A stretch of DNA of 64,000 nucleotides from a bacterium. Lineage in GTDB: Bacteria; Joyebacterota; Joyebacteria; Joyebacterales; Joyebacteraceae. Positions 56,247-64,000 of this stretch are shown piece after piece. Numbering within the stretch: the first letter of the stretch is position 1; each line of letters begins with the position of its first letter. A model generated the notes under the pieces. The model saw nothing but the letters and a program-made list of their open reading frames with translations, made no database searches and was not told the DNA's origin. The translations under genes and the position numbers were made by a program. The DNA is taken from NCBI GenBank assembly GCA_025774935.1, contig JALGZK010000001.1:186001-250000 (forward strand). The letters are read 5' to 3'.

Positions 56247-56699
56247 ATGGGTGTGAGACGGGAGGGGCGGGAGCTAGCCGTCAAACTTCTCTACCGCGAG
56301 GAGGTTACGGGGCTCACCGATCTCGCGATCCCCGGAATCGAGGAGGAGCGGGAGGAGGCCCTCGTCTTCGCCGGGCGCATAGTGGACGGAGTTAGGGAGC
56401 GCCTCGAGGCCATCGACGGCGCGATCTCCGAAGCGAGCGAGCACTGGGACATCTCGCGCATGGGCGCAGTCGACAGGACGGTGCTCCGGATCGGCGCGTA
56501 CGAACTGCTGTTCGCTCCCCGGATCCCGATCGGGGTCGTCATCAACGAGGCGGTCGACTGCGCGAGGAAGTTCAGCTCCGACGAGTGCGGACGCTTCGTG
56601 AACGGCGTCCTCGACCACATCGCGAAACTCGTCAGGCCGTCTGAGAAGGAGCAGGCCGAGCCCGCCGAGGAAGAGACGGAGGAAGAACCGACTTCGTGA
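56247..56699 (+). CDS. nusB: Transcription antitermination factor NusB
   Basis: The 150-residue all-helical protein begins RREGRELAVKLLYR and contains MGAVDRTVLRIGAYELLF and IPIGVVINEAVDCARKFSSDECGRFVNGVLD (two pieces), typical of NusB. The last 20 residues are an acidic tail. NusB binds boxA with S10 in rRNA antitermination. ribH-nusB is a widespread pair. The stop overlaps the next gene. Confidence 0.95.
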   Translation: MGVRREGRELAVKLLYREEVTGLTDLAIPGIEEEREEALVFAGRIVDGVRERLEAIDGAISEASEHWDISRMGAVDRTVLRIGAYELLFAPRIPIGVVINEAVDCARKFSSDECGRFVNGVLDHIAKLVRPSEKEQAEPAEEETEEEPTS

Positions 56700-57421
56700 G
56701 ATACGTCGTCCTGAGCGACATCCACGCAAACCTCGAAGCGCTCGAGGCAGTGTTCGAGGAGATCGAGAGCATTGAGCACGATGCCGTCGTCTGTCTCGGC
56801 GACGTCGTCGGCTACGGTCCCGACCCGGGACCGGTGGTCGAGCTCGTCCGCGAGCGCTCTGCGGTGACCGTGCGCGGCAACCACGACAACGCAGCCGTCG
56901 ACCCGCGCGAGGAGGCCTTCTTCAACGACTGGGCGGCCGCGGCGATCCGCTGGACTCGCGAGCACCTGTCCGACAGCCAGCAGGCCTACCTCGGCGGGCT
57001 GCCGTACACCGCATCGCTCGGAAGCGCACTCCTCGTCCACTCGTCGCCGAGCAGGCCGGAGGCGTGGCGGTACGTCCTGGGCAGACCGGACGCGATCTCC
57101 GAGTTCGACGCCTTCGACGAGCGGATCTGCCTGATCGGGCACTCGCACGTACCGATGATGGTCGCGAAGCTCGAGGAGCGAGTGTGGGAGCTCGTTTTGA
57201 GCGAGGTCTTCGTCACGCCCGGCATGAGGCTCATCGCGAACGTCGGGAGCGTGGGGCAACCGCGCGACCGCGACGTGCGAGCGAGCTTCGCGGTCCTCGA
57301 CCTCGACGAAGGAACCGTCGCCATTCGACGCGTCGCGTATAACGCGGAGAAGACCGCCGAGAAGATCATCGACGCCGGCCTGCCGAAGTTCCTCGGCGAG
57401 CGCCTGCTGGTCGGCCAGTAG
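56696..57421 (+). CDS. Predicted metallophosphoesterase (small YfcE/COG0639-type)
   Basis: The 241-residue phosphoesterase has intact metal motifs: LSDIHAN, CLGDVVGYGPDP, RGNHDN, HSSP and GHSHVPM. The small size and the GDVVGYGPDP form point to the bacterial YfcE/COG0639 group of predicted phosphodiesterases; the substrate is unknown. Unlike the nuclease at 2006 its GNHD motif is normal. GTG 56696 overlaps the nusB stop, and a 62-nt gap precedes the glycan cluster. Confidence 0.88.
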   Translation: MRYVVLSDIHANLEALEAVFEEIESIEHDAVVCLGDVVGYGPDPGPVVELVRERSAVTVRGNHDNAAVDPREEAFFNDWAAAAIRWTREHLSDSQQAYLGGLPYTASLGSALLVHSSPSRPEAWRYVLGRPDAISEFDAFDERICLIGHSHVPMMVAKLEERVWELVLSEVFVTPGMRLIANVGSVGQPRDRDVRASFAVLDLDEGTVAIRRVAYNAEKTAEKIIDAGLPKFLGERLLVGQ

Positions 57422-57483: not shown

Positions 57484-58437
57484 ATGTTGACCGCGAGCGT
57501 CGGAGTGATGGCCTACAACGAGGAGCGCAACATCGGGAAGCTCCTCGAGGCGCTCGTGTGCCAGAACCTCACGAACGTCGAGCTGCGCCAGATCTTCGTC
57601 GTCTCGTCAGGCTCGACCGACCGCACGGACGCGATCGCCGCCGACTGGGCGTCGCGCGAGCCCCGGATCGAGCTCATCCGCCAGGAGAGCAGAGAGGGGA
57701 AGGCCTCGGCCATCAACCTCTTCCTCGAGCGCGCGGATGCGGACGTCTTCGTACTCGAGAGCGGAGACACGCTCCCGGCGCCAGACTGCGTCGAGGAGCT
57801 CCTGGCGCCGTTCGCCGATTCCGAGGTGGGCATGACGGGCGCGAGGCCGGTTCCGGTGGACGACCCCGGCACCTTCATGGGGTTTGTCGTCCACATGCTC
57901 TGGAGGCTCCACCACTGCCTGGCGCTCAGGACCCCGAAGCTCGGGGAGATGGTGGCGTTCCGGTCGTTCGTACGGGCGATTCCAGTCAACACGGCGGTCG
58001 ACGAGGCGAGCATCGAGGCGATCGTGATCGACCGGGGACAGGAACTCAGGTACGCGCCCGACGCGATCGTCTACAACAAGGGCCCCGACAGCGTCCGTGA
58101 CTTCCTCAAGCAGCGCCGGAGAATCTACGCGGGGCACCTCTGGCTCGAGAAGGAGCAGTCGTACGAGGTCTCCACGAAGAAGGTCGGCGGCATCTTCCGC
58201 GTCCTCCTCGACGACCTCGAATGGAAGCCCAGGACGGTCCTCTGGACGGTGGGCGGGATCTTCCTCGAGACCGTCGGACGGTTCCTCGGAGTAGTCGACT
58301 ACCGCGTCCTCAAGAAGAACCCGTACACCTGGGACGTGGCGGAGTCCACGAAGGACCTCGATGCCGCTCCGGAGGGCGGCGGAGCGGGTCGACCGACGAA
58401 CGCCGGCCGCGGCCCCGCGGCCGGAGGTGCGGGATGA
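57484..58437 (+). CDS. Family 2 glycosyltransferase with unusual acidic motif
   Basis: The 317-residue protein has the GT-A start VGVMAYNEERNIGKLLEAL, SSGSTDRT, and E-S-R-E-G-K-A-S-A-I-N. At the D-x-D position it reads VLESGDTLPAPD rather than the usual D-A-D-T. A C-terminal segment (about 235-275) may associate with the membrane. It is the first gene of a cluster whose members overlap or nearly abut; the stop overlaps the radical SAM gene (ATGA). The sugar and acceptor are unknown. Confidence 0.82.
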   Translation: MLTASVGVMAYNEERNIGKLLEALVCQNLTNVELRQIFVVSSGSTDRTDAIAADWASREPRIELIRQESREGKASAINLFLERADADVFVLESGDTLPAPDCVEELLAPFADSEVGMTGARPVPVDDPGTFMGFVVHMLWRLHHCLALRTPKLGEMVAFRSFVRAIPVNTAVDEASIEAIVIDRGQELRYAPDAIVYNKGPDSVRDFLKQRRRIYAGHLWLEKEQSYEVSTKKVGGIFRVLLDDLEWKPRTVLWTVGGIFLETVGRFLGVVDYRVLKKNPYTWDVAESTKDLDAAPEGGGAGRPTNAGRGPAAGGAG

Positions 58438-59564
58438 TCGAGGTGCTCGCGAGGATCCCCTTCTACAAGCTCATGTACTCGACGGGGTGGCCCCGCGTCC
58501 TGCCGCTCAACCTCACGGTGAGCGTCACCTACCGCTGCAACTCGCGTTGCCGGACGTGCAACGTGTACACGAAGGACGCGGAGGAGTTCACGGTCGAGGA
58601 GTTCGACCGCACGTTCGCGTCGCTCGGACGCGCTCCCTACTGGTACACGATGAGCGGGGGCGAGCCGTTCCTGAGATCGGACCTGCCGGACATCTGCGAG
58701 AGCGCATACCGCCACGGGGCGCCCGGGATCATAAACATCCCCACGAACGGGCTTCTGCCGGACAGGATCCCCGAAGCTGTCCGCGACATCGCGACGCGCT
58801 GCCCGAAGAGCCAGATCATCATCAACCTCTCGATCGACGAGATCGGGGACGCCCACGACGCCATCCGCGGCGTCGAGGGCAGCTTCGAGCGTGCGCTCGA
58901 GAGCTACCGAGGCCTCCGGGACCTCCGCCTGCCGAACCTGACCGTCGGGGTGCACACGGTCATCTCCGTCTACAACGTGGATCGCATCCCCGACGTCTAC
59001 GAGTACGTCACGCGTGAGCTCGAGCCCGACTCCTTCATCACCGAGATCGCCGAGGAACGGGTCGAGCTCGAAACGCTCGGAGCCGGGATCACGCCCGACG
59101 CGGCTTCGTACGCGAAGGCGGTCGACTACCTGATCGAGAGGATCAAGGAGGCCGATTACTCGGGGATCTCGCAGGTCACGCAGGCGTTCCGCATACGCTA
59201 CTACGAGCTCGTGAAGCGCTACATGCGCTCGGGGCGTCAGGAGATCCCCTGCTACGCAGGTGTCGCGTCGGCGCAGATCGCCCCGGACGGCGACGTCTGG
59301 TTCTGCTGCGTGAAGGCCGAGCCCGTCGGGAACCTCCGCGAGGCGGACTACGACTTCGCGACGGTGTGGTTCGGGGAGAAGGCCCGAGAGGAGAGGCGGA
59401 GGGTGCGAAACGGCGAGTGCGCGTGCCCTCTCGCGAACGCGGGCTACACGAACATGCTCATGCACGTCCGCACCGTTGAGGGCGTGGCCACCGAGGTCGC
59501 GGCCGGGCGCGTGGGACACGGACGGACGGGTTCCCGCGAGAGCGAACGCGAAGGGGAGCGCTAG
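58434..59564 (+). CDS. Radical SAM protein with SPASM-like C-terminus
   Basis: The 376-residue enzyme has the [4Fe-4S]-SAM motif in YRCNSRCRTCN (C-x3-C-x2-C, residues about 32-39), the SAM-binding M-S-G-G-E-P strand, and a C-terminal Cys set (CYAGVASAQIAPDGDVWFCC, then N-G-E-C-A-C-P-L-A-N) like the auxiliary-cluster SPASM or twitch domains. The N-terminal I-P-F-Y-K-L-M-Y may sit at the membrane. Its reaction is unknown; the context (two glycosyltransferases, DUF362, a methyltransferase-like protein and a flippase-like protein) suggests modification of a glycolipid or surface sugar. Confidence 0.87.
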   Translation: MIEVLARIPFYKLMYSTGWPRVLPLNLTVSVTYRCNSRCRTCNVYTKDAEEFTVEEFDRTFASLGRAPYWYTMSGGEPFLRSDLPDICESAYRHGAPGIINIPTNGLLPDRIPEAVRDIATRCPKSQIIINLSIDEIGDAHDAIRGVEGSFERALESYRGLRDLRLPNLTVGVHTVISVYNVDRIPDVYEYVTRELEPDSFITEIAEERVELETLGAGITPDAASYAKAVDYLIERIKEADYSGISQVTQAFRIRYYELVKRYMRSGRQEIPCYAGVASAQIAPDGDVWFCCVKAEPVGNLREADYDFATVWFGEKAREERRRVRNGECACPLANAGYTNMLMHVRTVEGVATEVAAGRVGHGRTGSRESEREGER

Positions 59565-60704
59565 GTGGCGGTCTATCTCGACGAGATCCGCGGCTACCGC
59601 GTCGCCGACATCGAGGCCTCGATCGAACGCGCGATCGAGGCGCTGTCGATCGACCTCGCGTCGGTCCGCACGGCCCTCGTGAAGCCGAACCTCGTGATCG
59701 CCGCCCTTCCGAAGACGGGAGTCGTGACGCATCCCGACGTCGTGGAGGCCATCGTCTCAGTGCTCCGGAAGCGAGGCTGCGAGCGGATCGTGCTGGCCGA
59801 CGGTCCGGGCGTCGGACTCGACGTCGAGGAGGTCTTCCGGAAGAGCGGGTACGCAGCGCTCGCGTCGCGGCTCGGAGTCGAACTCCTGAACTTCAACACG
59901 GCGGAGCGTCGCGAGCGGGAGTGGAAGTACGGCAAGCTCGGAGTGCCAGCGGTGCTCGAGGACGCTGACCTCTACGTCAACGTGCCGAAGCTCAAGACCC
60001 ACGGCTACACGACCCTGACGCTCTCCATCAAGAACCACAAGGGCATGCTCTCGGAGGAAGACAAGAAGCTCGACCACCACCTGGGACTCCACGAGCCGCT
60101 CGTGGAGCAGGCGAAGCTGAGGCCTCCCGACCTCATCGTGCTCGACGGGATCGTTGGAGTCGAGAAGGACGGACCGCTGAACGGGAAGGCCAAGCGCGCC
60201 GGCATCTTCGCCATCGGGACGAACATGCTCGAGGTCGACGCGACGGCAGCGAGACACGCGGGATTCGACCCGCGCGACATCGAGCACCTCGCGATCGCGG
60301 AGCGCGAGGGCATCGGGACGATGGACCCCGAGGTCCTCGGAGACGCGCCGCTGGTCAGGTTCATGCCTGCCAACGAGGACTACGGGCAGGTAATGAACAT
60401 CTACTCGTGGCGCGACTGCACGGCCTGCTCGATGTGCATCGACTCGTTCAGCGCGGGCGTCAAGCTCGCGGTCCGGGACCCCCGGTACTGGTTCACGCTC
60501 GTGCCGAAGCTCGTCTACTGGGGCTTCTTCGGGAAGCTCCACATCATCCAGGGACGCGAGGCGAAGGTCCCGGACGCCGAAGGGCGCGTCATCTGCCTCG
60601 GGAAGTGCACGAGGGACCTCGCGGAGAGCGAGGGCCTGATCCACTTCCCGGGATGCCCCCCGTCGGCGAGAGACGTCGCGGAGACCATGCGGAGGAAGCT
60701 CTAG
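59565..60704 (+). CDS. DUF362 protein with C-terminal cysteine cluster
   Basis: The 379-residue protein has the DUF362 layout: VKPNLVIAALPKTGVVTHPDVVEAI read in two pieces, the L-A-D-G-P strand, NVPKLKTHGYTTLTLSIKNHKGM in pieces, and LIVLDGIVGVEKDGPLNG. A C-terminal region contains Cys285, Cys288, Cys291 (CTACSMC), Cys344, Cys348 and Cys364, which could hold an iron-sulfur cluster. DUF362 proteins are of unknown function and often accompany redox enzymes. The GTG start directly follows the radical SAM stop, which argues that the two act together. Confidence 0.85.
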   Translation: MAVYLDEIRGYRVADIEASIERAIEALSIDLASVRTALVKPNLVIAALPKTGVVTHPDVVEAIVSVLRKRGCERIVLADGPGVGLDVEEVFRKSGYAALASRLGVELLNFNTAERREREWKYGKLGVPAVLEDADLYVNVPKLKTHGYTTLTLSIKNHKGMLSEEDKKLDHHLGLHEPLVEQAKLRPPDLIVLDGIVGVEKDGPLNGKAKRAGIFAIGTNMLEVDATAARHAGFDPRDIEHLAIAEREGIGTMDPEVLGDAPLVRFMPANEDYGQVMNIYSWRDCTACSMCIDSFSAGVKLAVRDPRYWFTLVPKLVYWGFFGKLHIIQGREAKVPDAEGRVICLGKCTRDLAESEGLIHFPGCPPSARDVAETMRRKL

Positions 60705-60708
60705 CGCT

Positions 60709-61572
60709 ATGGCTGCCACCGAGAAGGACACCGGACTCGGAACGACATACGAGAGGATCGCGGTCGCGCGTCTCCTCGAGCGCTTCGCCGAGCACCACCC
60801 GATCCGGAACGTGCTCGAGGGGCCGACCGACGGGATCACGGGGATCAGGGGACTCAACAGCGTCCCGCTCGCGCAGGGCGGAGCACGGGTCGAGCTCGTC
60901 CTCGGGGACCCGGACGAGGTCACGATCGCGCGCCGCGTGTGGCGAGAGCTCGGACTCGCCGACCAGGTCACGGTGCGGCACTCCCGTGACGGGCGCCTCG
61001 ACGTGCCGCCGCGTTCGTTCGACCTCGTGTGGAACTTCAACTCGCTGCCCCAGGCCGCGGACCCCGAGGCCATTCTGAGCGAGATGTGTGACGCGAGCGC
61101 GAGGTTCGTCCTCGTCTTCGTCGGGAACACCATGAATTACGGCTACCCGATCCACAGACTCCATCACCGGGCCGCGCGCGAGGAGTGGAGCCACGGCGAC
61201 GTCGAGATGATGAACCCACGACTCATCGAGAAGATGCTCGCGGAGCGCGGGTTCCGGGCCAGGGAGAGACTCCTCGTTGACACGCCGTGGTGGCCCGACA
61301 TCGACTCTCCGATCGAGGAGGTCGCTGCGACCTTCCTGCCGTTCCTCAGGAGGTTCGCGAGCGGCTCGAAGCGGCTCCAGCACTACACGTGGACGCCCGA
61401 GGACCTCCCGTACTTCGACCCCGACCGGCGCAGGAAGCTCGAGGCCGAGCTCGGGAAGCACTTCGCCATCGAGAACGCCGAGCGCTTCCCCTTCAGGGTC
61501 CTGTTCGCCCACCACCGCGGGATCCTGACCGAGAGGGAGGACGCGACGACTCCAGGAGGAGGGACCGCTTGA
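60709..61572 (+). CDS. SAM-methyltransferase-like protein, divergent
   Basis: The 287-residue protein has a class I methyltransferase-like order: an N-terminal nucleotide-binding-like strand (NVLEGPTDGITGIRG), V-E-L-V-L-G-D-P as motif II, and S-F-D-L-V-W-N-F-N-S-L as motif IV, but the first Gly-rich loop is poorly conserved. It may be a real but divergent methyltransferase or an inactive relative. It begins 4 nt after the DUF362 gene and shares TTGA with the next start. Confidence 0.6.
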   Translation: MAATEKDTGLGTTYERIAVARLLERFAEHHPIRNVLEGPTDGITGIRGLNSVPLAQGGARVELVLGDPDEVTIARRVWRELGLADQVTVRHSRDGRLDVPPRSFDLVWNFNSLPQAADPEAILSEMCDASARFVLVFVGNTMNYGYPIHRLHHRAAREEWSHGDVEMMNPRLIEKMLAERGFRARERLLVDTPWWPDIDSPIEEVAATFLPFLRRFASGSKRLQHYTWTPEDLPYFDPDRRRKLEAELGKHFAIENAERFPFRVLFAHHRGILTEREDATTPGGGTA

Positions 61573-62603
61573 GCCGGGGCTCCAAGATCGCGCTCGCCAC
61601 CGTTGCCGGAATAGTGCTCCTCGCGATCGCTCTGTACGGGGTCGACGTCGGGCGCGTCCGCGAGCTCATCGCGCACGTCAACGCACCGTGGCTCGCGCTC
61701 GCTGCCGTCCTCTACGTCTCGGCCTATCTCGTCAGGAGCCTCCGGTGGAGGCTCGTCCTGAGGCCGGTGCAGAGGGTGCGCGTCTCGGAGAGCTTCTTCA
61801 TGCTCATGGCGGGCTACTTCCTGAACTACATCATCCCGATCAGGGCGGGCGAGGTCGCCAAGTCGTTCTTCCTGAAGCGGCTGCGCGGCGTCCCGATCGC
61901 GACGAGCCTCCCGACGATCTTCGTCGACAAGCTCCTCGAGCTCCTGTCGATCGTGCTCGTCGTGCTCCTCATCCCGGTCCTTTCGATCGAGCTGAACGGC
62001 TACCTGGGGACGCTCATCGTCACGGTGCTCGTCGTCTTCGCCATTGCGCTCGCCCTCCTCGTCATGGCCATCTGGAGGGAGCGGGCGACCGCGCGGGTCC
62101 TGACGGCAGCCGTCTCCTGGCTCCCGGCCCGCGTCTCCTCGCGTCTGAGCGCGTGGCTCGAGCTCTTCGTCGGCGGGATGGGCGTCGCCCGACAGAACGC
62201 GAGGACGCTGGCGCCGCTCGTAGGATACACGGCCTTCGCGGTGCTTCTGGACGCCCTCTACTTCTCCTGCGTGTTCAGGGCCTTCTCCATGGATGTCCCT
62301 TTCGTGATGGTGCTTTTCGGGTATACTCTCATATCCTTGTCCTACATCCTCCCGACGCCACCCGCCCAGATCGGGCACAACGAGGCGGTGATGGTGCTCA
62401 TCTTCGCCGTCGGGTTCGGGCTCGGCAGGGACGAGGTGACGGCGGTCATGATCCTCGCGCACCTCATGACCGGGCTCATCGTGACCGGCATCGGGCTCTG
62501 GTCGTTCGGCGCGATGAGCATCAAGGTCAGCGAGAGCTTCAGGCACGTGGCGGAGGCTGCCGGGTCCGACTCACCGGACGCTGCCGCCGGAAGAGGAGGA
62601 TGA
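61569..62603 (+). CDS. Lysylphosphatidylglycerol synthetase/UPF0104-type flippase-like membrane protein
   Basis: The 344-residue protein has seven or eight membrane helices. Motifs of the LPG-synthase transmembrane (AglD/UPF0104) family include YLVRSLRWRLVL, MAGYFLNYIIPIRAGEVAKSF, TIFVDKLLELLSI and the late S-L-S-Y-I-L-P-T-P-P-A-Q-I-G-H-N-E. Such proteins are proposed to flip lipid-linked sugars or lipids. TTG 61569 overlaps the previous stop and has AGGAGGAGGG 5 nt upstream. Confidence 0.82.
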   Translation: MSRGSKIALATVAGIVLLAIALYGVDVGRVRELIAHVNAPWLALAAVLYVSAYLVRSLRWRLVLRPVQRVRVSESFFMLMAGYFLNYIIPIRAGEVAKSFFLKRLRGVPIATSLPTIFVDKLLELLSIVLVVLLIPVLSIELNGYLGTLIVTVLVVFAIALALLVMAIWRERATARVLTAAVSWLPARVSSRLSAWLELFVGGMGVARQNARTLAPLVGYTAFAVLLDALYFSCVFRAFSMDVPFVMVLFGYTLISLSYILPTPPAQIGHNEAVMVLIFAVGFGLGRDEVTAVMILAHLMTGLIVTGIGLWSFGAMSIKVSESFRHVAEAAGSDSPDAAAGRGG

Positions 62604-63562
62604 TGGGCGGCGCAGGGGACGGGAAGATCCTCGTGACGGGAGCGGCCGGGTTCATCGGCTCGCACGTCTCGGAACGACTGACGCGGGACGGGCGCTCCGT
62701 GAGGGGCGTCGACTCGTTCACGGACTACTACCCGCGGAAGCTGAAGGAACAGAACCTCGCCGGCCTCGAGGGAAGCGCTGGTTTCGAGCTCGTCGAGGCC
62801 GATCTGGCGACGTGCGACCTCGGCCCGCTCATGGAAGGCGTCTCGTCGGTCTGCCACCTCGCGGCGCAGGCCGGAGTCCGCGCGAGCTGGGGCGAGAGCT
62901 TCTCGATCTATCTCGACTGCAACGTCCGCTCGACGCAGAGGCTTCTCGAGGTGGCGCAGGGGACGGGTCTCGACAGGTTCGTCTACGCGTCCTCATCGTC
63001 GGTCTACGGGCAGACCGACGACCTCCCGATGCGTGAGGAGGGGCGGACGTGCCCGGTGTCGCCGTACGGTGTGACGAAGCTCGCGGGCGAGCACCTCGCC
63101 GTTCTCTACCACAGGAACTACGGGGTGCCGACGGTCTCGCTACGCTACTTCACCGTGTACGGGCCGAGACAGCGCCCTGACATGGCGTTCCACCGGTTCA
63201 TCCGCGCGGGGCTCGAGGGCAGTCCGGTGGCAATCCTCGGCGACGGCGCGCAGACGCGCGACTTCACGTACGTCGACGACGTCGTGGAGGCAACCGTGCG
63301 CGCGCTCGAGGACGGGCCGGAGGGCGAGGTCCTGAACGTGGGCGGAGGGAGTCGCGTTGCCTTGAGCGAAGCGATCGACCTCATCGAGTCGACCGTGGGG
63401 CGCCCGATCGAGCGGCACCACGAGAACCCGGCGCGGGGCGACGTAACCGACACCCTCGCGGACAACCGGAAGGCGCGCGACCTCCTCGGGTTCTCTCCGA
63501 GCGTCACCCTCGAGGAAGGCATCGCGCGCGAGTGCGAATGGCTGCGGAGCGTCTCGTTCTGA
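62600..63562 (+). CDS. NAD-dependent sugar-nucleotide epimerase/dehydratase
   Basis: The 320-residue extended SDR protein has ILVTGAAGFIGSHVSERL, the F-T-D-Y-Y-P-R segment typical of UDP-glucuronate 4-epimerases and relatives, CHLAAQAGVR, the S-S-S-S-V-Y-G element and catalytic Y-x3-K in PYGVTKLAGEHL, and TVYGPRQRPDMAF. It probably epimerises a UDP-sugar. ATG 62600 (next codon also ATG) overlaps the flippase-like gene. It supports sugar-nucleotide supply for the cluster. Confidence 0.9.
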   Translation: MMGGAGDGKILVTGAAGFIGSHVSERLTRDGRSVRGVDSFTDYYPRKLKEQNLAGLEGSAGFELVEADLATCDLGPLMEGVSSVCHLAAQAGVRASWGESFSIYLDCNVRSTQRLLEVAQGTGLDRFVYASSSSVYGQTDDLPMREEGRTCPVSPYGVTKLAGEHLAVLYHRNYGVPTVSLRYFTVYGPRQRPDMAFHRFIRAGLEGSPVAILGDGAQTRDFTYVDDVVEATVRALEDGPEGEVLNVGGGSRVALSEAIDLIESTVGRPIERHHENPARGDVTDTLADNRKARDLLGFSPSVTLEEGIARECEWLRSVSF

Positions 63563-63611
63563 CAAGCTCACCGGCAGTGCCGTCGCAAGGCGGCGCGGAG
63601 GTCATCCGAGC

Positions 63612-64000
63612 ATGGACGTCTCGATACTCATCCCGCTCCTGAACGAGGAAGAGAGCCTGCGCGAGCTCTATCGGAGGATCTCCGCTGCGATGGAGCCGCT
63701 GGGTAAGCAGTGGGAGGTCGTCTTCGTGAACGACGGGAGCACGGACGGCTCGATGGACGTCCTGAGGGAGCTCTACGAGGCCCACGGGAACGTCAAGGTG
63801 CTCGCGTTCGGCAGGAACCTCGGGAAGTCGGCCGCGCTCGCCGTCGGGTTCCGCGAGGTCCAGGGAGAGGCCGTCGTGACGATGGACGCGGACCTCCAGG
63901 ACGACCCCTCCGAGATCCCGAAGATGCTCGACCTCCTGAACGAGGGCTGCGACCTCGTCAGCGGGTGGAAGAAAGAGAGGCAGGACCCGCTCTCGAAGCG
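63612..64000 (+). CDS. Family 2 glycosyltransferase, polyprenyl-phosphate type (3' end outside window)
   Basis: The first 129 residues are visible: MDVSILIPLLNEEESLRELY, VFVNDGSTDGS, GRNLGKSAALAVGF and TMDADLQDDPSEIPKM. This is the DPM1/DPMS-like group that loads a sugar onto a polyprenyl phosphate, and the DADLQDDP motif is intact, unlike the enzyme at 57484. It begins 49 nt after the epimerase and runs off the window. Confidence 0.9.
   Translation, partial: MDVSILIPLLNEEESLRELYRRISAAMEPLGKQWEVVFVNDGSTDGSMDVLRELYEAHGNVKVLAFGRNLGKSAALAVGFREVQGEAVVTMDADLQDDPSEIPKMLDLLNEGCDLVSGWKKERQDPLSK

Follow-up and report, generated by a model that had tools for sequence, protein, structure and literature searches.

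What is made by a tight array of seven genes in which two glycosyltransferases stand beside a radical S-adenosylmethionine (SAM) enzyme and a DUF362 protein? The array lies at the end of a stretch of 64,000 nucleotides (G000:C1:186001-250000, hereafter the window) from a bacterium of the little-studied Candidatus Eisenbacteria, to which its named relatives also belong. The contig runs on beyond the window end and the downstream flank was readable. Our preferred answer, to which we give a probability of roughly 50 %, is that the genes belong to an invariant envelope-glycan locus of Eisenbacteria, of the lipopolysaccharide-core or glycolipid type, and that this locus holds a recurring radical SAM tailoring module. 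The reusable module would consist of a family 2 glycosyltransferase (GT2a), a radical SAM/SPASM enzyme (rSAM), a methyltransferase-like protein (MT) and the DUF362 protein, with a GT9 protein added in some lineages. The gene set, its synteny, the domain architectures and the recurrence of the module were seen directly.

All seven tightly packed open reading frames reported by the initial annotation are present where it had placed them, and the array is syntenic in relatives, so it is not a chance arrangement. Pfam backs the two glycosyltransferases (GT2), rSAM (Radical_SAM plus SPASM), the DUF362 protein, the epimerase (Epimerase) and the flippase-like protein (PF03706). For the divergent methyltransferase a relation is seen, but it stays under the curated cut-off. 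The features are the following (Pfam match and E-value in brackets):

57484..58437, + strand: GT2a, family 2 glycosyltransferase (PF00535, 4e-23)
58434..59564, + strand: rSAM, radical SAM enzyme with SPASM-like C-terminus (PF04055, 6e-16; PF13186, 1e-6)
59565..60704, + strand: DUF362 protein, GTG start (PF04015, 4e-45)
60348..60701, + strand: NuoB-like predicted [4Fe-4S] domain of the DUF362 protein, residues 262-379 (CxxC, GxC, GCPP)
60709..61572, + strand: MT, methyltransferase-like protein (PF08241, 9e-4, under the curated cut-off)
61569..62603, + strand: integral membrane protein, LPG_synthase_TM, TTG start (PF03706, 1e-46)
62600..63562, + strand: sugar-nucleotide epimerase/dehydratase of the short-chain dehydrogenase/reductase type (PF01370, 7e-59)
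63612..64559 (L005:9612-10559), + strand: GT2b, 315 aa, running past the window end at 64000 (PF00535, 1.5e-29)
56696..57421, + strand: metallophosphoesterase directly upstream of GT2a, a position kept in all relatives (PF12850, 1e-19)

From GT2a through the epimerase the genes overlap or are separated by gaps of at most 4 nt, and a 49-nt gap precedes GT2b. GT2a and rSAM overlap by 4 nt in the window, where they share ATGA, and also in L110, L261, L262 and L265. The stop-to-start contact between rSAM and DUF362 holds in the window, where the GTG start abuts the TAG stop, but the exact contact varies among relatives (-4 to +75 nt) and it is the tight packing that is kept. Gaps between GT2a, rSAM, DUF362 and MT range from -8 to +75 nt across relatives, with a single outlier of 121 nt for which the choice of start may account.

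The individual proteins show several unusual features. GT2a has ESGD where DXD is usual, as well as a QRRRI stretch. The rSAM protein exceeds the Pfam cut-offs (59.6 vs 29.5 bits for PF04055 and 28.9 vs 21.5 bits for PF13186) and its alignment shows CxxxCxxC, later cysteines (C273, C291, C292, C329, C331) and the motif CPLANxxYTN. Its distant solved relatives in the PDB include cytosylglucuronate decarboxylase, which acts on a sugar. MT carries an atypical motif I (VLExPxxGxxG), and its relatives lie near rSAM in Chloroflexota, Delta lineages, archaea and Firmicutes. The PF03706 protein is putatively flippase-like for lipids, judging from its family. GT2b is nearest to polyprenyl-phosphate glycosyltransferases of the ArnC/PgfS type (NF007986, 198 bits, under the cut-off), and for the epimerase no NCBIfam equivalog above cut-off was found.

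A SPASM enzyme beside a glycosyltransferase could also mean maturation of a ribosomally synthesized and post-translationally modified peptide (RiPP), with GT2a in the role of MftF as in mycofactocin synthesis. SPASM models do score for rSAM, and MftF is the top-scoring NCBIfam model with GT2a, but far under its cut-off (55 vs 280 bits); MftC likewise reaches 47 of 265 bits. Between 57484 and 63562 each gene abuts or overlaps the next, which leaves no space for a precursor gene, and among the neighbours found there is neither an MftA, MftB, MftD or MftE protein nor a RiPP recognition element protein. The flanks are glycan assembly genes, and we consider peptide maturation extremely improbable.

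The envelope-glycan reading draws on a much larger region. As the initial annotation expected, the cluster continues past the window end, where GT2b is completed and further glycan genes follow; the array forms the opening part of a cell-envelope glycan locus of roughly 29 kb that ends near position 86190 in the frame of the window. Upstream lie riboflavin-synthesis-type genes and nusB (both read by eye), then the metallophosphoesterase. Downstream of GT2b we found GT4, GT2, a PF01663 enzyme, GT9, a second PF01663 enzyme and a Wzx-like protein (a weak match, E 0.05), followed by a large membrane protein without Pfam match, a DPM-like GT2 and a fused GT2/Bac_transf protein. The locus then runs through a two-component-like gene (by eye), CapD, DegT, FemAB-like, GT87, GT4 and GT2 genes. 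The GT9 gene (L005:14066-15211) encodes a Cys-rich N-terminal extension, and GT9 also stands beside GT2a/rSAM in L261 and L262. Microcompartment genes, namely a PF06130 phosphate propanoyltransferase, EutN, aldehyde dehydrogenase, PduS-like and BMC, come right after the glycan locus (L006:12671-17934, about 22.7 kb past the window end).

We looked for the cluster in other genomes and found its members conserved together: 17 genomes of the family have at least GT2a and rSAM in the same order, and in 16 the DUF362 gene is on the same contig. In six further genomes, representing five genera, the block of 25 genes that starts with nusB and closes with the last GT2 is preserved in order and strand at 42-84 % protein identity, without gain, loss or displacement of any gene; this search covered the six genomes with downstream contig and did not include the G001 stretch. 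We read the locus as one for glycan assembly on account of the Wzx-like, Bac_transf, CapD and DegT genes in its flanks, and the 25-gene block is almost certainly responsible for building a sugar structure of the cell surface. The same Wzx-like, Bac_transf, CapD and DegT genes, with many glycosyltransferases downstream, would suit a capsule or O-antigen locus of the ordinary, strain-variable kind, with unusual genes in it by chance. Strain-variable loci do not show such fixed content and order, and the block is unchanged in all six further genomes searched that far. With 25 genes colinear at these identities the block is fixed, unlike variable capsule loci, and we hold an ordinary variable locus to be very unlikely. 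The possibility that the genes belong to a known capsule pathway, raised by the initial annotation against its own proposal, applies only in a broad sense, to the type of flanking genes, and the locus is invariant.

Outside the family, rSAM was sought by a scan of genome contigs that gave 80 loci, 5 of them from Eisenbacteria; neighbour counts depend on contig ends. The enzyme occurs in Cloacimonadota, Chloroflexota, Calditrichota, Delta lineages, Fermentibacteria, Planctomycetota, Gemmatimonadota, some archaeal metagenome-assembled genomes (MAGs) and others. Its most frequent partner is GT2a, within 6 kb in 34 of the 80 loci, followed by the epimerase (25/80), GT4a and MT (18/80 each), GT2b (13/80) and DUF362 (8/80), and most loci with annotated neighbours contain glycosyltransferases and epimerases. 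Cloacimonadota and Eisenbacteria have the order nusB-GT2a-rSAM in common, and the pair of GT2 and rSAM is met again in other lineages, an archaeal MAG among them. Three genomes show larger parts of the module: the distant G186 has GT9-GT2a-rSAM-MT-rSAM2-DUF362 in one contiguous run, G323 has GT9-GT2a-rSAM-MT-rSAM2, and G411 has two coupled pairs, GT2a-rSAM and DUF362-MT. The rSAM2 protein is a different SPASM radical SAM enzyme (L261:7669-8739); in G186 its gene separates MT from DUF362, and in G323 it adjoins MT. In the rSAM tree the group of close relatives is split from a polysaccharide-locus group, though the deepest fork is weak.

We know of no established function for DUF362 proteins. 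The window copy is a clear member (PF04015, 154.9 bits vs a gathering cut-off of 24), and DUF362 is the sole Pfam match reported for it: neither Lar_N (PF09861) nor PF01058 (NuoB/hydrogenase small subunit) matches above cut-off, and no sequence relatives were found in the PDB. In its structure model (pLDDT, the predicted local distance difference test, 90.9) residues 1 to ~270 match LarA (VIA Z 16-18 over about 214 residues) and residues 277-379 match NuoB-type chains of complex I (Z about 6). After VIA re-alignment of the Foldseek candidates for the isolated C-terminal domain, all 50 of 50 rows were complex I or NiFe hydrogenase entries (Z 5.5-6.6); with Foldseek alone the top three were complex I entries, the best at a non-significant E of 0.1. 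In single-target hhalign comparisons with a NuoB profile, which brought GxC and GCPP into register, the probability was 92-96 %; the reversed control reached 0.3 %. The NuoB-like assignment is made on the profile match with its reversed control together with the VIA re-alignment, and not on Foldseek alone. We conclude that this is likely a two-domain LarA-like/NuoB-like protein.

The six C-terminal cysteines pointed out by the initial annotation (C285, C288, C291, C344, C348, C364) are present in this copy. Alignments show a pattern of four, CxxC/CC - GxC - GCPP, that fits a [4Fe-4S] site, and the other two are not constant. Several orthologs have Pro in place of C285, two distant members lack C344 and one lacks C291, while the copy in the archaeal-labelled locus L091 lacks the second Cys of CxxC and retains the extra C344. 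As fold re-alignment and profile comparison point to a NuoB-type site, the cysteines of CxxC, GxC and GCPP probably hold one [4Fe-4S] cluster, a loading we infer from these matches; judging from the alignments, ligand use may vary between members.

The sequence profile match to LarA is weak (probability 9.8 %). The profile alignment pairs H146, K156 and H171 with catalytic residues of LarA, which we take to be His174, Lys184 (the cofactor tether) and His200 (a Ni ligand); the His, Lys and His appear conserved in DUF362, with an equivalence that depends on a weak alignment (E 0.003). A nickel-pincer cofactor was considered and rejected: LarC and LarE above cut-off are both missing from G000, G003, G006, G007 and G013, five near-complete genomes (completeness 96-100 %) that all have the locus. 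Because of these carriers the cofactor is unlikely. Some Eisenbacteria genomes in which neither LarC nor LarE passes its cut-off do encode a separate LarA (Lar_N) homolog, for example at G000:C39:48249-48833 (L222), so another route to the cofactor keeps a small probability.

How DUF362 relates to rSAM was addressed by co-occurrence in 386 genomes. Outside the family 13 genomes have the NuoB-like DUF362 domain and 33 have rSAM, and the two meet in 7 vs 1.2 expected (P 3e-5); counted by families, the way in which kinship was handled, P is about 1e-3 to 3e-3 with the number of families approximated as 200-250. This association and the NuoB-like domain would agree with DUF362 being a dedicated electron donor of rSAM or its auxiliary SPASM clusters, the NuoB-like domain serving as relay. 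The two genes are adjacent in Eisenbacteria, and both are in the rSAM-phosphoesterase-DUF362 group of L091 (L091:9890-13641, from a MAG labelled Methanomassiliicoccales with a partly masked record), near which no glycosyltransferase was seen. However, DUF362 is coupled to MT and not to rSAM in G411, many rSAM carriers are without this DUF362 subtype, and a whole LarA-fold domain with conserved His and Lys exceeds what an electron carrier needs. A pure donor role thus seems rather unlikely to us. The coupled pair proposed by the initial annotation is not obligate, GT2a being the commoner partner.

Under the envelope-glycan reading, GT2a would most likely place a sugar onto a lipid-linked or membrane-associated acceptor, and rSAM would alter a carbon centre of the added unit by radical chemistry, for instance by epimerisation, deoxygenation or dehydrogenation. 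DUF362, with its LarA-like pocket and NuoB-like [4Fe-4S] domain, could transfer electrons or hydride, either in this step or in the one that follows. MT may complete the unit, and translocation of the lipid-linked product might fall to the membrane proteins of the PF03706 and Wzx-like types. The redox step on a lipid-linked sugar suggested by the initial annotation is plausible, the reaction and the step order being proposals of ours.

Several points weigh against this reading. The sugar substrate is conjectural, the methyltransferase assignment is weak with PF08241 below threshold, and the co-occurrence count corrects for kinship by families only. What rSAM shares with its PDB relatives is mainly the common core, and SkfB, MoaA and a lipid-linking enzyme are among those relatives too. 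Cloacimonadota, Chloroflexota and Calditrichota loci have rSAM without a nearby DUF362 gene of this subtype, and most of those genomes searched gave no clear full-length copy. In Chloroflexota/Anaerolineae rSAM often lacks glycan genes, and in many Anaerolineae it stands alone. In one Anaerolineae MAG (L131:11220-14892) a lone rSAM is followed by one unrelated gene and then by PduS/BMC/EutN-like genes (by eye).

Loci of Anaerolineae without glycan genes would be expected if rSAM acted on a membrane lipid or isoprenoid (a carrier lipid, quinone or membrane-spanning lipid) and GT2a glycosylated the modified lipid. In Calditrichota rSAM adjoins a flavin-dependent oxidoreductase resembling geranylgeranyl reductase (GGR-like FAD oxidoreductase), and a weak PDB match leads to the archaeal synthase of macrocyclic archaeol and glycerol dialkyl glycerol tetraethers. 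This match is low and no better than that to MoaA, rSAM reaches 35.5 bits vs a cut-off of 450 with the tetraether lipid synthase model (Tes, NF045702), and glycosyltransferases and epimerases are present in most loci with annotated neighbours. We regard a lipid substrate as doubtful.

Within the limited open-access literature we found no described pathway with this gene set, in line with the initial annotation; the core of GT2a, rSAM, MT and DUF362 is undescribed and recurs in unrelated lineages. Synteny and co-occurrence tie a DUF362 subtype with a LarA fold and a NuoB-like Fe-S domain to rSAM and a glycosyltransferase, which yields a testable biochemical hypothesis and suggests that uncultured phyla make an envelope glycan that is still uncharacterised and may be essential. 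Cloacimonadota, including a named Candidatus Syntrophosphaera genome, offer a possible setting for studying the GT2a/rSAM core. A bolder and quite tentative idea is that DUF362 is the first example to be recognised of a class of redox enzymes that wire a LarA-type pocket without nickel-pincer to a hydrogenase/complex-I-type [4Fe-4S] domain, and that with rSAM and a dedicated glycosyltransferase it makes a new sugar modification in several bacterial phyla.

Among known systems, Wzx-type O-antigen and exopolysaccharide loci share with the Eisenbacteria locus the glycosyltransferases, epimerase, Wzx-like flippase, Bac_transf glycosyl-1-phosphate transferase, CapD and DegT. The Eisenbacteria locus differs in that no Wzy polymerase or export machinery was identified in it, its order and content are invariant across the genera examined and the GT2a/rSAM/MT/DUF362 module is present. 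Cytosylglucuronate decarboxylase (7vob/7voc) and other sugar-acting radical SAM enzymes have the radical SAM core in common with rSAM and a sugar as their substrate, but rSAM aligns with the former over the core region alone (35 bits). DUF362 and the LarA superfamily (DUF2088) are placed in one Pfam clan, CL0471 (PMC11770544). LarA and our DUF362 protein have the N-terminal fold in common, but the latter is without the second domain of LarA and several of its carriers are without LarC and LarE. With NuoB and the small subunit of [NiFe]-hydrogenase (PF01058) the DUF362 C-terminus shares the fold and the order of CxxC, GxC and GCPP, whereas the domain is shorter, has no catalytic large subunit in the locus and is fused to a LarA-like domain.

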